Assembly: GCA_016192435.1 (NCBI GenBank)
Contig: JACPUD010000032.1
Span: forward strand, 1-41,841
DNA: 41,841 bases
From: Rhodocyclales bacterium
Lineage (GTDB): Bacteria; Pseudomonadota; Gammaproteobacteria; Burkholderiales; Rhodocyclaceae
Reading direction: 5' to 3'
The position numbers were made by a program, and so were the translations under genes. Under the pieces are notes generated by a model, which saw only the letters and a program-made list of their open reading frames with translations, made no database searches and was not told where the DNA came from. Positions 1,718 to 38,980 of the stretch are shown piece by piece; position 1 is the first letter of the stretch, and the number at the start of each line of letters is the position of its first letter.

Positions 1718-2868
1718 ACGTCGGCGAGGATGGTGCGGATCGGCGCCGGCAGCGCGGCGGCGGCGGTGGCGGCCAGGTCCAGCCACTGCCGGCCCGGTTC
1801 CATCACGGAGTGAAGCGGCCTCACACGCAGCAGCAGCGGCGCGATGTGCAGGCGGAAATGGCTGAAGCCATGCACCAGAGTTGGCGCTGGCGACACGGCG
1901 AGCACGCGACAGCCGAAGTGCTGTTCGGCCCAGGCTGCGGCGTCGGCGCCTGGCGGCAATTCCGGCAGCGACAGCAACCCGCCCCAGATGCCGCTCGGCG
2001 GCCGGGTTTCCAGCAGCACGCGAGCGCCGTCCCGCAGCACCAGCAGGTTGGCATGGCGCAGCGGAATCTCGCGGCGCGGTTTCGGCGTCGGTAGTTCGGC
2101 GGTGCGGCCGCCGGCGCGGGCGACGCAGATGTCATGGAGCGGGCAGGCCTCGCAGCGCGGCCTGGTCCGGGTGCAGACCATGGCGCCGAGATCCATCTGC
2201 GCCTGATTGTAGATCGCGCCCTGGCGCTGCGGCATCAGTTGCGCGGCCAACGCCCAGAGACGCTTGTCCACTGCGCTGCTGGCGGGAAAGCCCTCGATGC
2301 CAAAGGCGCGGCACAGCACGCGCTTGACGTTGCCGTCGAGGATCGGCGCCTGGGCGCCGAAGCAGAAAGTGGCGATCGAGTTGGCGGTGGAGCGGCCGAT
2401 GCCGGGCAGTTCCGCAATGACATGCGGATCGCGTGGAAACTTGCCGCCGTGCTGGTTCATCACCGCCTGCGCGCAGGCGTGCAGATTGCGCGCGCGGGCG
2501 TAGTAGCCGAGCCCGCTCCATAGCGCCATGACTTCCGCGACCGGCGCTGCGGCGAGATCGGCGAGCCGCGGAAAGCGCTCGAGAAAACGCAGGTAGTAGG
2601 GAATCACGGTCGCCACCTGGGTCTGTTGCAGCATGATTTCCGACAGCCAGACGCGGTAGGAATCCTTGGTGTTCTGCCACGGCAGGTCGTGCCGGCCGTG
2701 GCGCTGGTGCCAGCGGATCAGGCGCGCGGCGAAGCCGCGCGCCGAGGGCGGCAATACAGCCTTCCCCCCGGCCTCCGTCCCGGGGAAGGGGGTGACCACG
2801 GTTTGCCGCTTGCGCGGCTCCATGGCCGTGGCCGATTCTCCCCGGGGCGTTGCGGCGGCGATGATCAC
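1675..2868 (-). CDS. mutY: A/G-specific adenine DNA glycosylase MutY
   Basis: Removes adenine mispaired with 8-oxoguanine or G in base excision repair. The 397-aa reading contains the HhH glycosylase core (about 45-250) with catalytic Glu77 in [10 protein letters not shown], the [11 protein letters not shown] hairpin, Asp178 in ILDGNVKR, and a Cys-X6-Cys-X2-Cys-X5-Cys iron-sulfur loop (C232, C239, C242, C248). A Nudix-like C-terminal domain follows ([17 protein letters not shown]). The GTG start at 2868 overlaps the purT stop (GTGA), suggesting coupling; an internal ATG at 2823 is an alternative. Residues 16-37 are encoded by a GC-rich repeat also found at 20157-20214, and the conserved core begins only around residue 44, so the first 40 residues are probably dispensable. 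Confidence 0.93.
2760..2821. repeat. GC-rich interspersed repeat B, copy 1 (inside mutY)
   Basis: About 60 bases alignable with 20157-20214: both run pyrimidine-rich CCCTCCCCCC-like sequence, then CCCCGG, then GGGGGTGAC, then GGTT(C/T)GCCGC, T(T)GCGCGGCTCC. Here the sequence is translated on the minus strand as part of the MutY N-terminal extension. The alignment was made by eye with small gaps. Confidence 0.65.
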
Positions 2869-4088
2869 CCCTTGACGGGCTTCACGCGGCTCGCCGCCAA
2901 TTTCGCCCGCGTTCGCGCTTCGTCGGTCGTGTCGGCATTCGCCACGGCGACGCCCATGCGGCGCTTCCTGAAACTCTCGGGCTTGCCGAACAGGCGCAGG
3001 TCGGATTCGGGCACCTGCAGGGCGTCGGCGACGCCTTCGAAGGCGATGCCCGTTTCTTCCAGGCCGCCGTAAATCACCGCCGAGGCGCCGGGACGGCGCA
3101 GGGAAGTATCGACCGGCAGGCCGAGTATGGCCCGCGCATGGAGTTCGAATTCGGACAGGCGTTGCGTCGCCAGCGTCACCAGGCCGGTGTCGTGCGGCCG
3201 CGGGCTGACCTCGGAGAACCAGACCTGGTCGCCCCTGATGAACAGCTCGACGCCGAAAATGCCGCGTCCGCCGAGGTTGCCGGTGATGGCGCGGGCGATC
3301 TCGCGCGATTTCTGCAGCGCCGCCGGCGTCATGGCCATCGGCTGCCAGGATTCGACGTAATCGCCATTGACCTGCACATGGCCGATCGGCTCGCAGAAGT
3401 AGGTTTCGACAGCGCCCGAAGCGCCGACGGCACGCACCGTGAGCTGGGTGATCTCGTAGTCGAAATCGATGAAGCCCTCGACGATCACCCGACCGGCGCC
3501 GACGCGGCCGCCGGCCTGCGCATAATCCCAGGCCTGCTGCACGTCCGCCTGGCTCTTCAGCAGCGACTGGCCCTTGCCCGAGGAGGACATGACCGGCTTC
3601 ACCACGCAGGGGAAGTCTATTCCCGCGTCGATCGCCGCCCGCAACTCGGCCAGGTTATCGGCGAACTGGTAGGGCGAAGTCGGCAGGCCGAGTTCCTCGG
3701 CGGCGAGGCGGCGTATCCCTTCGCGGTTCATGGTCAATTGCGCGGCACGCGCGGTCGGAATGAACTCGGGGAAATGCCCGGCCACGCCGTCGCGTTCCAT
3801 CTCGACCAGCGCGGCGGTGGCGATGGCCTCGATCTCGGGCACCACGAGCTGCGGCTTTTCCTTTTCGATCACTGCGCGCAGCGCGGCGCCGTCGGTCATG
3901 GTCACGACATGGCTGCGGTGCGCGACCTGCATGCCCGGTGCGTCGGCGTAGCGATCGACGCCGATCACCTCGCAACCCAGGCGCTGCAATGCGATAATCA
4001 CTTCCTTGCCCAGTTCGCCGCAACCCAGCAGCATGACGCGCGTGGCGGACGGAGAAAGAGGTGTGCCGATACGTCCGACGATGCCCAT
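2865..4088 (-). CDS. purT: Formate-dependent phosphoribosylglycinamide formyltransferase PurT
   Basis: ATP-grasp enzyme making formyl-GAR from GAR, formate and ATP in purine synthesis, independent of folate. At 407 aa it matches family length and shows near-identity to the known protein in [43 protein letters not shown] (nucleotide-binding loop), [13 protein letters not shown] and [13 protein letters not shown] segments. The ATG at 4088 is chosen because a GGGAG motif lies just upstream and [17 protein letters not shown] matches the normal N-terminus; the frame extends 20 codons further upstream without support. mutY follows with a 4-base overlap. Confidence 0.96.
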
Positions 4089-4147
4089 CAGGTGCTCCCG
4101 ATAAATTGATGTTCCCCCGATTTTAGAGCCTGCCGACGAGTAGCCCA

Positions 4148-4639
4148 ATGAACCAGCCGTTTTCTTACAGTTTCGATCCGCGCAGCCTGCGCGATGCCCT
4201 CGGTGACTTCGCCACCGGCGTGGCCGTGGTCACCGCGCGCAGCGCCGACGGCCAGCCGGTCGGCGTCACCATCAACTCCTTCGCCTCGGTTTCGCTCGAA
4301 CCGCCGCTGGTGCTGTGGAGCCTCGGCCTGCACTCGCCCTCGCTGGCAGTCTTCGAATCCTGCAGGCATTATTCGGTCAATGTCCTCGCCGCCGACCAGA
4401 TCGAGTTCTCGCAGCGTTTTGCGCAGTCGCAGAGCGACAAGTTCGCCGGCATTGAACTGAAAGTTGGCGCTGGCGACACGCCGCTCCTGCCCGGCTGCTG
4501 CGCCTGGTTGGAATGCCGCAACGAACTGCGCTATCCGGGCGGCGACCACGTGATTCTGGTCGGTTATGTCGAACGCTTCGAACGCCAGGCCAGGCCGCCG
4601 CTGATATTCCATGGCGGCCGCTACCGCAGCCTGGCTTGA
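4148..4639 (+). CDS. Flavin reductase family protein
   Basis: A 163-aa FMN-binding split-barrel protein. [21 protein letters not shown] and [20 protein letters not shown] are characteristic of the flavin reductase-like (PF01613) family, as is a C-terminal [11 protein letters not shown]. Members supply reduced FMN or FAD to two-component monooxygenases or act as general NAD(P)H:flavin reductases. No partner monooxygenase is nearby, so the substrate is open. It is transcribed divergently from purT across a 59-base gap. Codons at 4460-4483 carry one copy of the 24-base motif described in the findings (residues around LKVGAGDTP). Its stop overlaps the likely TTG start of the next gene. Confidence 0.88.
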
Positions 4640-37798: not shown

Positions 37799-37819
37799 TT
37801 CGGGTTTCGTAGGCAAGAG

Positions 37820-37850
37820 AAGGCGTGGGGCCGTGGGCTCCGCGCCTTTT
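37820..37850 (+). terminator. Stem-loop terminator after erpA
   Basis: AAGGCGTGGGGCC (37820-37832) pairs with GGCTCCGCGCCTT (37836-37848) through 13 pairs including two G-U, loop GTG, followed by TTTT. It lies between the convergent erpA and anmK genes. Confidence 0.8.
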
Positions 37851-37879
37851 GTCGTTATCGCCCGCTGTTGCGCGTGGAA

Positions 37880-38980
37880 TCAGTGCCGATAGATGGCGCC
37901 CAGGATACGTGGCCCGCGGGCGCCCGTGACTTCCGGTAGATTGCCCGTTTCGCCGTTCAGAGTGCGCCACGCCAACCAGGCAAAGGCCAGCGCTTCGACC
38001 CAGTCGGCCGCCTGACCGAGAGAGTTGGTGCTGGCAACACGGCAATTCGTCAGATGATGCTGCAGTCGAGCCATCAAAGTCTGGTTGTGCGCGCCGCCGC
38101 CGCAGACGAAGAGTTCGACGGGATTGCCGCACCAGCGATTGATTGCCTGAACCGCAGACACGGCGCTGAGTTCAAGCAGGGTCGCCTGGACGTCTTCCGC
38201 TCGTTCGCTGCCGGCAAGATGGCGCTCGATCCACGCCAGATTGAACTCGTCGCGGCCGCAGCTCTTGGGTGGGCTTGCAGCGAAAAAGCCGTCAGTGAGG
38301 AAGCTGTGCAGCAGTTCGGGAAGCACCAGCCCCTGCGCGGCCCACTGGCCGTCGTCGTCGTAGCGCAGTCCCTTGTGGTTTTCTATCCAGGCGTCGAGCA
38401 GCAGATTGCCGGGCCCGCAGTCGAAGCCGCGCACCACTTGTCCGGGATTGAGGTTGGTCAGATTGGCGATGCCGCCAATGTTCAGGATGACCCGATGTAG
38501 TGAGGGATCGCCGAATATCGCAGCATGAAAGGCCGGCACCAGCGGGGCTCCCTGGCCGCCGGCGGCAATGTCGCGGCTGCGGAAATCAGCTACAACGGTG
38601 ATTCCGGTCAATTCGGCCAGCAGCGCCGGGTTGTTCAACTGCACGGTATATCCGGCGGCGGGTTGATGCCGGACGGTCTGTCCGTGGCAGCCTATGGCCG
38701 CAACTTGTCCGGCGCCGACCCCGGCCTTGGTTAGAAGGTGGCCGACCGCCTCGGCGTAGCTACGAGCCAGTTCGTTGGCAAACAGCGCGGCGGAGTTGAT
38801 TTCATCGTGTTGCGCAGTCTGTAGCCGGAGGGCCTGCAGGCGTATGGAGTCGGAATACGGCTGCCAGAATGTGGCAAGTGTGCGCGGCTGACCGTGGGAG
38901 AAGTCGACCAGGGCGGCATCGACGCCATCGAGGCTGGTTCCCGACATCAAGCCCACGACCAGCGGCACGGCCGAAGCCAT
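37880..38980 (-). CDS. anmK: Anhydro-N-acetylmuramic acid kinase
   Basis: A 366-aa sugar kinase that cleaves and phosphorylates anhydro-MurNAc in cell-wall recycling. ATP-binding GLMSGTSLDGVDAALVDF opens the protein; GCHGQTVRHQP, VADFRSRDIAAGGQGAPLVP, LNIGGIANLT and FDCGPGNLLLDAW are family blocks. It directly follows the M23 endopeptidase gene (1-base gap), a sensible pairing of wall hydrolysis and recycling. VASTNSLG is encoded by a copy of the 24-base motif (38021-38044). Confidence 0.96.
   Translation of the reverse strand: MASAVPLVVGLMSGTSLDGVDAALVDFSHGQPRTLATFWQPYSDSIRLQALRLQTAQHDEINSAALFANELARSYAEAVGHLLTKAGVGAGQVAAIGCHGQTVRHQPAAGYTVQLNNPALLAELTGITVVADFRSRDIAAGGQGAPLVPAFHAAIFGDPSLHRVILNIGGIANLTNLNPGQVVRGFDCGPGNLLLDAWIENHKGLRYDDDGQWAAQGLVLPELLHSFLTDGFFAASPPKSCGRDEFNLAWIERHLAGSERAEDVQATLLELSAVSAVQAINRWCGNPVELFVCGGGAHNQTLMARLQHHLTNCRVASTNSLGQAADWVEALAFAWLAWRTLNGETGNLPEVTGARGPRILGAIYRH

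Follow-up and report, generated by a model that had tools for sequence, protein, structure and literature searches.

A dispersed 25-nt motif of the Rhodocyclaceae as a candidate DNA uptake sequence with one-base dialects

Motif Copies in a Rhodocyclales Contig

The window, a 41,841-nt stretch of DNA from a Rhodocyclales bacterium analyzed over its full length (contig C2 of genome G000; 3.52 Mb, 148 contigs, 83% complete), carries a short motif that recurs in and between genes such as mutY, hslU and anmK, and that is read here as a probable DNA uptake sequence. An earlier note on this DNA had listed seven copies of a 13-nt core, AGTTGGYGCTGGC, and all seven exact cores lie where it placed them, five on the plus strand and two on the minus strand. 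Its claim that they are far beyond chance also stands, with seven core matches in the window versus 0.01 expected (100 dinucleotide shuffles). The full motif is about 25 nt long, RAGAGTYGGCGCTGGCGNNACGGCG, and is found on both strands, within and between genes. Downstream of the core stand a mostly fixed G and two variable bases; the next five bases are ACGGC in five copies and depart from it in the other two (ACGGG at 26867, ACGCC at 4459). Copies are called T form or C form by the base at core position 4.

1876..1900, plus strand: 25-nt motif, T form; antisense in mutY (open reading frame (ORF) 1675-2868, minus strand), in the part coding for the NUDIX-type domain
4459..4483, plus strand: 25-nt motif, T form; sense in the flavin reductase ORF (4148-4639)
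8298..8322, minus strand: 25-nt motif, T form; gene context uncertain, earlier labeled small exported protein
13853..13877, plus strand: 25-nt motif, T form; sense in hslU
19854..19878, minus strand: weaker eighth copy in the C spelling (AAAAGTCGACGCTGGCGGCACGGCG)
21532..21556, minus strand: 25-nt motif, T form; in the glyS-gmhB gap
26867..26891, plus strand: 25-nt motif, T form; antisense in lnt (ORF 25520-26995, minus strand)
38020..38044, plus strand: 25-nt motif, T form; antisense in anmK (ORF 37880-38980, minus strand)

Pfam agrees with the earlier gene names at six of the seven T-form sites (mutY, flavin reductase, hslU as AAA ATPase, lnt, anmK, glyS and a gmhB-like HAD hydrolase); at the small exported protein, neither of the two overlapping ORFs tried matched a Pfam family. 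At the mutY site, most of 13 aligned congeneric genomes have C at the same place, and G027, G004 and G028 have other sequence. Most aligned congeners likewise have C at the flavin reductase site, which alone is weak evidence because the peptide VGAG-TPLL is itself fairly conserved there. The lnt copy is also present in G027; at the glyS-gmhB site G027 lacks the motif, in an alignment without a gap at the motif, and its ortholog of the weaker eighth copy is about 20 nt longer.

Genome-Wide Abundance and Gene Context

The earlier note had proposed a whole-genome count, a Markov comparison and an ortholog comparison. The count gave 169 forward and 160 reverse exact cores in 3.52 Mb (329 in all), and none for the reversed pattern. 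The motif was the top-ranked over-represented 12-mer in samples of both G000 (53 observed versus 0.48 expected under the Markov model; 432 kb) and a complete relative, G001, where it has C at position 4 (44 versus 0.69; 438 kb). Over-representation on both strands, a trait of DNA uptake sequences, is thus found here. In the G000 sample exact cores outnumber those with one mismatch (47 versus 31; 0 and 2 for the reversed control). The first 30 genome loci listed define a unit RAG-AGTYGGYGCTGGC-G-NN-ACGGCG that begins about 3 nt before the core, with little conserved beyond it; conservation 3′ of the core is independent evidence, since the loci were selected without that part.

Among copies with up to three mismatches, called genes contain 57 of 78 in the sampled part of G000 and 41 of 67 in that of G001, where called coding sequence makes up 83% and 86% of the DNA, respectively; these coding fractions and the gene ends are approximate, because the simple gene caller puts position 4462 outside the flavin reductase ORF. 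Sense and antisense copies are about equally frequent (29/28 and 21/20) and several codon phases are used, in support of the earlier claim that selection acts on DNA and not on protein. Codon bias or shared protein motifs could account for a preferred sense phase, and one does exist (18 of 29 and 17 of 21 sense copies), which would encode K-V-G-A-G-x-T-A. However, this explanation is already contradicted by the equality of sense and antisense and the use of other phases, and it is not sufficient, because frames are mixed and copies occur outside called genes (21 of 78 and 26 of 67); we regard it as extremely improbable.

A few copies are arranged in inverted pairs. In the 438 kb of G001, two pairs have their 3′ ends facing across a 5–6 nt spacer and lie between convergent genes as called by the simple caller; such facing pairs can form a long stem. 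In the G000 genome list, cores of opposite orientation occur at positions 3356 and 3390 of contig C22.

One-Base Dialects and Phylogeny

The T form is abundant in three of 31 congeneric genomes (G000, 329 copies; G015, 379; G027, 419), with 0–7 copies in the other 28 and 0–4 in 30 genomes of other genera. The C form, in which this T is replaced by C, reaches high numbers in 27 of these 28 congeners (63–438 copies). Counts are 12 in the remaining one, G016, 42–56 in the three T genomes and 0–6 in the 30 outsiders. In a tree of 15 congeneric genomes (12,213 columns from the window region), G000, G015 and G027 form a clade of three species with support 1.0, next to G022. Over the same region the T clade is 92–93% identical to G000, and the C-form sister G022 88%. 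These data indicate a single origin of the T form, on one branch. The dialects follow phylogeny, as those of uptake sequences do, in this tree of 15 genomes from one genus. Another spelling, with A at position 4, appears in 14 of 201 pairs between C-form genomes and was seen in G010.

The position of G016 nested inside the genus suggests that it has lost the motif. This genome retains one exact 22-mer as well as comEC, and its top words are TCTGCGCCTCTG-type repeats (stretches L240–L251).

Change in Place at Orthologous Sites

Among ungapped alignments with a C-form outgroup sequence, 81 of 95 pairs show T in the T clade and the other 14 show C (22 further pairs with a gap inside the motif were left out of this count). 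Flanking C became T at 470 of 8669 positions (5.4%). General CpG decay is no explanation for the switch, because other CpG cytosines of the motif differ in 0–9% of pairs. Counted per unique T-clade site, T is found at 23 of 31 (12 of 15 in G000, 5 of 7 in G015 and 6 of 9 in G027). The motif is otherwise retained: outside position 4 and the two free bases, its positions differ at a rate of 0.070 versus 0.165 in the flanks, and between C-form genomes at 0.103 versus 0.174.

A mobile mini-repeat, resembling small dispersed repeats (SDR), repetitive extragenic palindromic (REP) elements or miniature inverted-repeat transposable elements (MITE), could have produced many copies by repeated insertion, and relics of such an element had been among the earlier candidates. 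The many copies are in keeping with this, as is a longer variant that at some of the same sites contains a hairpin-like middle of 21 nt. However, the motif is weak or absent in the partner (at least five mismatches) in 84 of 596 aligned pairs, and of these pairs 46 align without gaps, 14 have deletions no longer than 9 nt, and in the other 24 the partner has 2–57 extra nt, some of these being the longer form; the analysis takes in alignable sites, and those too changed to align across the motif were left out. The flavin reductase and hslU sites of G016 lack the motif but are unchanged in length, and other sites of this genome show small gaps. Since orthologs without the motif show no 25-nt deletion, the motif appears to have spread by base changes rather than insertion. 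Mini-repeat insertion was accordingly rejected, as sites without the motif in these alignments do not differ by insertion of the unit; the same sites moreover changed from C to T together, and exact copies outnumber one-mismatch ones. We consider such an origin very unlikely. The ortholog comparison thus shows a motif gained or changed by point substitution, with 9 nt as the largest deletion. Gain by substitution and retention at orthologous sites, also a trait of uptake sequences, are observed here.

The longer form has about 21 nt of TCCCNNNGGGACGCANNGCGC type between AGT and YGGCGCTGGC, at sites that carry the short form in other species (mutY, hslU). Its pattern gave 1–21 exact copies in 28 of 31 congeners and none in the 30 other genomes; examples are L069, L071, L075, L171, L208 and the G027 ortholog of window positions 19854-19878.

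Distribution in Other Genera, an Island and Viral Contigs

Restriction of the motif to one genus was considered and overturned by matches in other genera in wider searches. A 22-mer pattern, AGTYGGYGCTGGCGNNACGGCG, is found in 76 of 297 genomes of the family. Of 13 genomes sampled in the window's genus, 12 have 118–311 copies and G016 has one; elsewhere there are 395 in g166 and 248 in g192 (one genome each), 18–205 in g36 (4 genomes), 24–121 in g215 (9 genomes) and a patchy 0–208 in g32 (11 genomes). The remaining genera have 0–8 copies, several of them clustered on a single contig (G548, G476, G448), suggestive of import. An order-wide draw matched in 15 of 399 genomes, including the window's own. 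With a looser pattern, 11 of the 12 matches in the single g172 genome have T at position 4, and many g215 copies have T at position 13. A MutY search gave 80 named loci, of which the three nearest, from Rugosibacter sp. (5), Rhodocyclaceae bacterium ppb04 (9) and UBA5602 (5), contain copies with up to three mismatches, and the other 77 contain none; the assignment to the family is based on these matches. Rugosibacter is a genus with cultivated members.

In G000, a low-GC island (60 kb of GC 0.57–0.60) has one copy versus 77 in the other 372 kb sampled; a strong match among seven relatives is limited to roughly the initial 3 kb of the 20 kb at its start. The motif is scarce in this one 60-kb stretch, as uptake sequences are in recently acquired DNA.

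Viral DNA does carry the motif. The pattern AGTYGGCGCTGGCGNNACGGCG matches at least 120 IMG/VR stretches (one for the reversed pattern), and all 86 exact sites in 80 viral loci have C at position 4. Scans of IMG/VR gave no match for the T form, although near relatives of the window may be absent from this collection, possibly hiding T forms; they also gave none for T at positions 4, 7 and 13 and none for G at position 4. Among ten proteins from seven viral loci there are matches to phage primase, exonuclease, SSB, endolysin, tail proteins, DNA methyltransferase, transposase and ParB-like families. An alignment of more than 200 nt with 1.86 Mb of congeneric sequence was found for three of the 80 loci. 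Matches to 12 plasmid records (E 0.04–0.4) were read as chance.

Several viral loci have further features near the motif. An attC-like word occurs in 13 of the 80, and in some (L267, L268, L284, L302) the motif stands directly before such words. L267, L284 and L286 encode integrases with the Pfam phage integrase domain or its N-terminal domain. We take these integrases to resemble IntI and the nearby words to resemble attC. A context that recurs in loci such as L284, L297, L302 and L338 gives, in one frame, ...DAKVGAGDTAVQGDML; the phage-type DNA methyltransferase of L284, which includes the motif, ends with this context.

Distribution and strand also bear on two further explanations. Sites for a chromosome-organizing or nucleoid protein, of which matS-, Noc- and SlmA-like sites are named examples, could co-evolve in sequence with their protein, and any sequence-specific protein could account for a genome-wide motif whose spelling differs by clade. 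However, no strand bias was seen in G001, where 65 of 206 forward copies fall in the first 1.098 of 3.80 Mb (GC skew there mostly positive) versus 59.5 expected without bias. A replichore-oriented signal was rejected for this part of the replication arm, which is what the count covers, and the segregation signal suggested earlier found no support. The motif is also scarce in the island, which a chromosome-wide structural site need not be, present in phage contigs, and patchy even within genus g32; a role of this kind is unlikely. A recombination or DNA-protection signal, either Chi-like or a mark of self read by a defense system, would fit the presence of the motif in phage contigs, but such a signal would be long at about 25 nt. 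Given the lack of leading-strand bias in the part examined and the persistence of an island nearly devoid of the motif, we find this quite unlikely as well.

The Motif as a Predicted DNA Uptake Sequence

Among the candidates named earlier, an uptake-sequence-like signal fits best by its sequence-level traits, and wherever the analyses gave a clear result, the motif shows the known sequence-level traits of uptake sequences. We therefore predict, with a probability of about 0.74, that it is a DNA uptake sequence, a tag for the preferential uptake of kin DNA in natural transformation. For this we infer a receptor, preferential uptake and a drive. A surface receptor, probably a type IV minor pilin, would recognize the tag, and DNA of the cell's own kind and of close relatives would be taken up preferentially for natural transformation. 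Through uptake and recombination, tagged alleles would be slightly likelier to replace untagged ones, and the tag would build up by point changes across the shared genome and temperate phages, not in newly acquired islands. A shift in receptor preference may then have led to the rewriting of hundreds of tags in place, producing the one-base T dialect of the window's clade.

Several points weigh against this interpretation. The ortholog pairs behind the position-4 count repeat sites and are not independent, and C was kept at 3 of 15 sites in G000, 2 of 7 in G015 and 3 of 9 in G027. The extra 21 nt of the longer form lack an explanation. The 432 kb sampled from G000 contain no tight inverted pair, and a search of named phage records gave no match to the motif. 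Known uptake sequences are quoted at 9–12 nt (passages of PMC12616744), shorter than the roughly 25 nt here. The 63–438 exact cores per genome are fewer than in some Neisseriaceae genomes, quoted with 2245–3603 copies. The search for competence genes covered comEC and the pilin family PF12019. Uptake machinery, as represented by comEC, is present in 34 of 35 genomes; because these include motif-poor ones (G016 too), comEC does not separate the hypotheses. GspH-type pilins (PF12019) were found in all 24 genomes searched, motif-rich and motif-poor, and identification of the receptor by their presence was rejected on that basis.

With somewhat less confidence, we favor a broader view in which this would be a third independent uptake system, in an environmental family and with a signal of about 25 nt. 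A one-base dialect change would have rewritten hundreds of sites in one clade and created a marked barrier to gene exchange, and phages and integron-like elements with the ancestral dialect would share their host's exchange network. If so, with this additional family the evolution of self-tagging could be compared over three origins. The T clade and its C-form sister G022 would catch a recent dialect switch, for which the receptor change can be sought directly.

Other Repeats

The window also contains an 82-nt repeat in two copies that are 80% alike (13282-13363 and 23801-23882), the second between perfect 28-nt inverted arms (23743-23770 / 23891-23918), and tandem 13-mers of GTAGGGCCGACCT type at 18341-18431. 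In L169, positions 3655-3840 and 4790-4963 are dispersed repeats of about 100–180 nt with dozens of congener matches at about 72–91% identity.

Comparison With Known Systems

In the open-licence papers searched, GTCGGCGCTGGC was not found and no paper had both 'DNA uptake sequence' and Rhodocyclaceae; in searches of the open-licence literature combining uptake terms with Rhodocyclales genera, uptake sequences were not mentioned among the matches listed. Small dispersed repeats of cyanobacteria, described by Elhai and others, are thought to be mobile. Like the present motif, they are of similar length and occur in coding and non-coding DNA, but here aligned orthologs show base changes and not insertions.

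The 12-mer DNA uptake sequence (DUS) of the Neisseriaceae is of the ATGCCGTCTGAA type. Neisseriaceae and Pasteurellaceae are named as the only families with known uptake sequences in passages of a 2025 paper (PMC12616744). A DUS or uptake signal sequence (USS) proper was considered and set aside, since the core sequence is not shared (AAGTGCGGT / ACAAGCGGT; profile compared by eye). The motif resembles the DUS (Frye et al., 2013; PMC3630211) in being an abundant family-level motif with dialects that follow phylogeny, in occurring in genes, and in being lacking from some family members; the DUS also stands in inverted pairs at terminators, an arrangement to which the two pairs in G001 may correspond. 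It differs in its sequence, in its length (about 25 nt, of which two bases toward the 3′ end are free) and in its lower copy number; the receptor ComP is known for the DUS (PMC3630211), whereas here a receptor is predicted. As in the USS of Pasteurellaceae, there are two clade spellings. USS are less dense in accessory genes, as the motif is in the one island, and are reported to accumulate in temperate phages, to which the viral contigs with the motif may be a parallel (PMC12616744; PMC6776037, the latter for temperate phages of Pasteurellaceae). The USS cores AAGTGCGGT / ACAAGCGGT are unrelated to the present motif, whose fixed part is longer and GC-rich.

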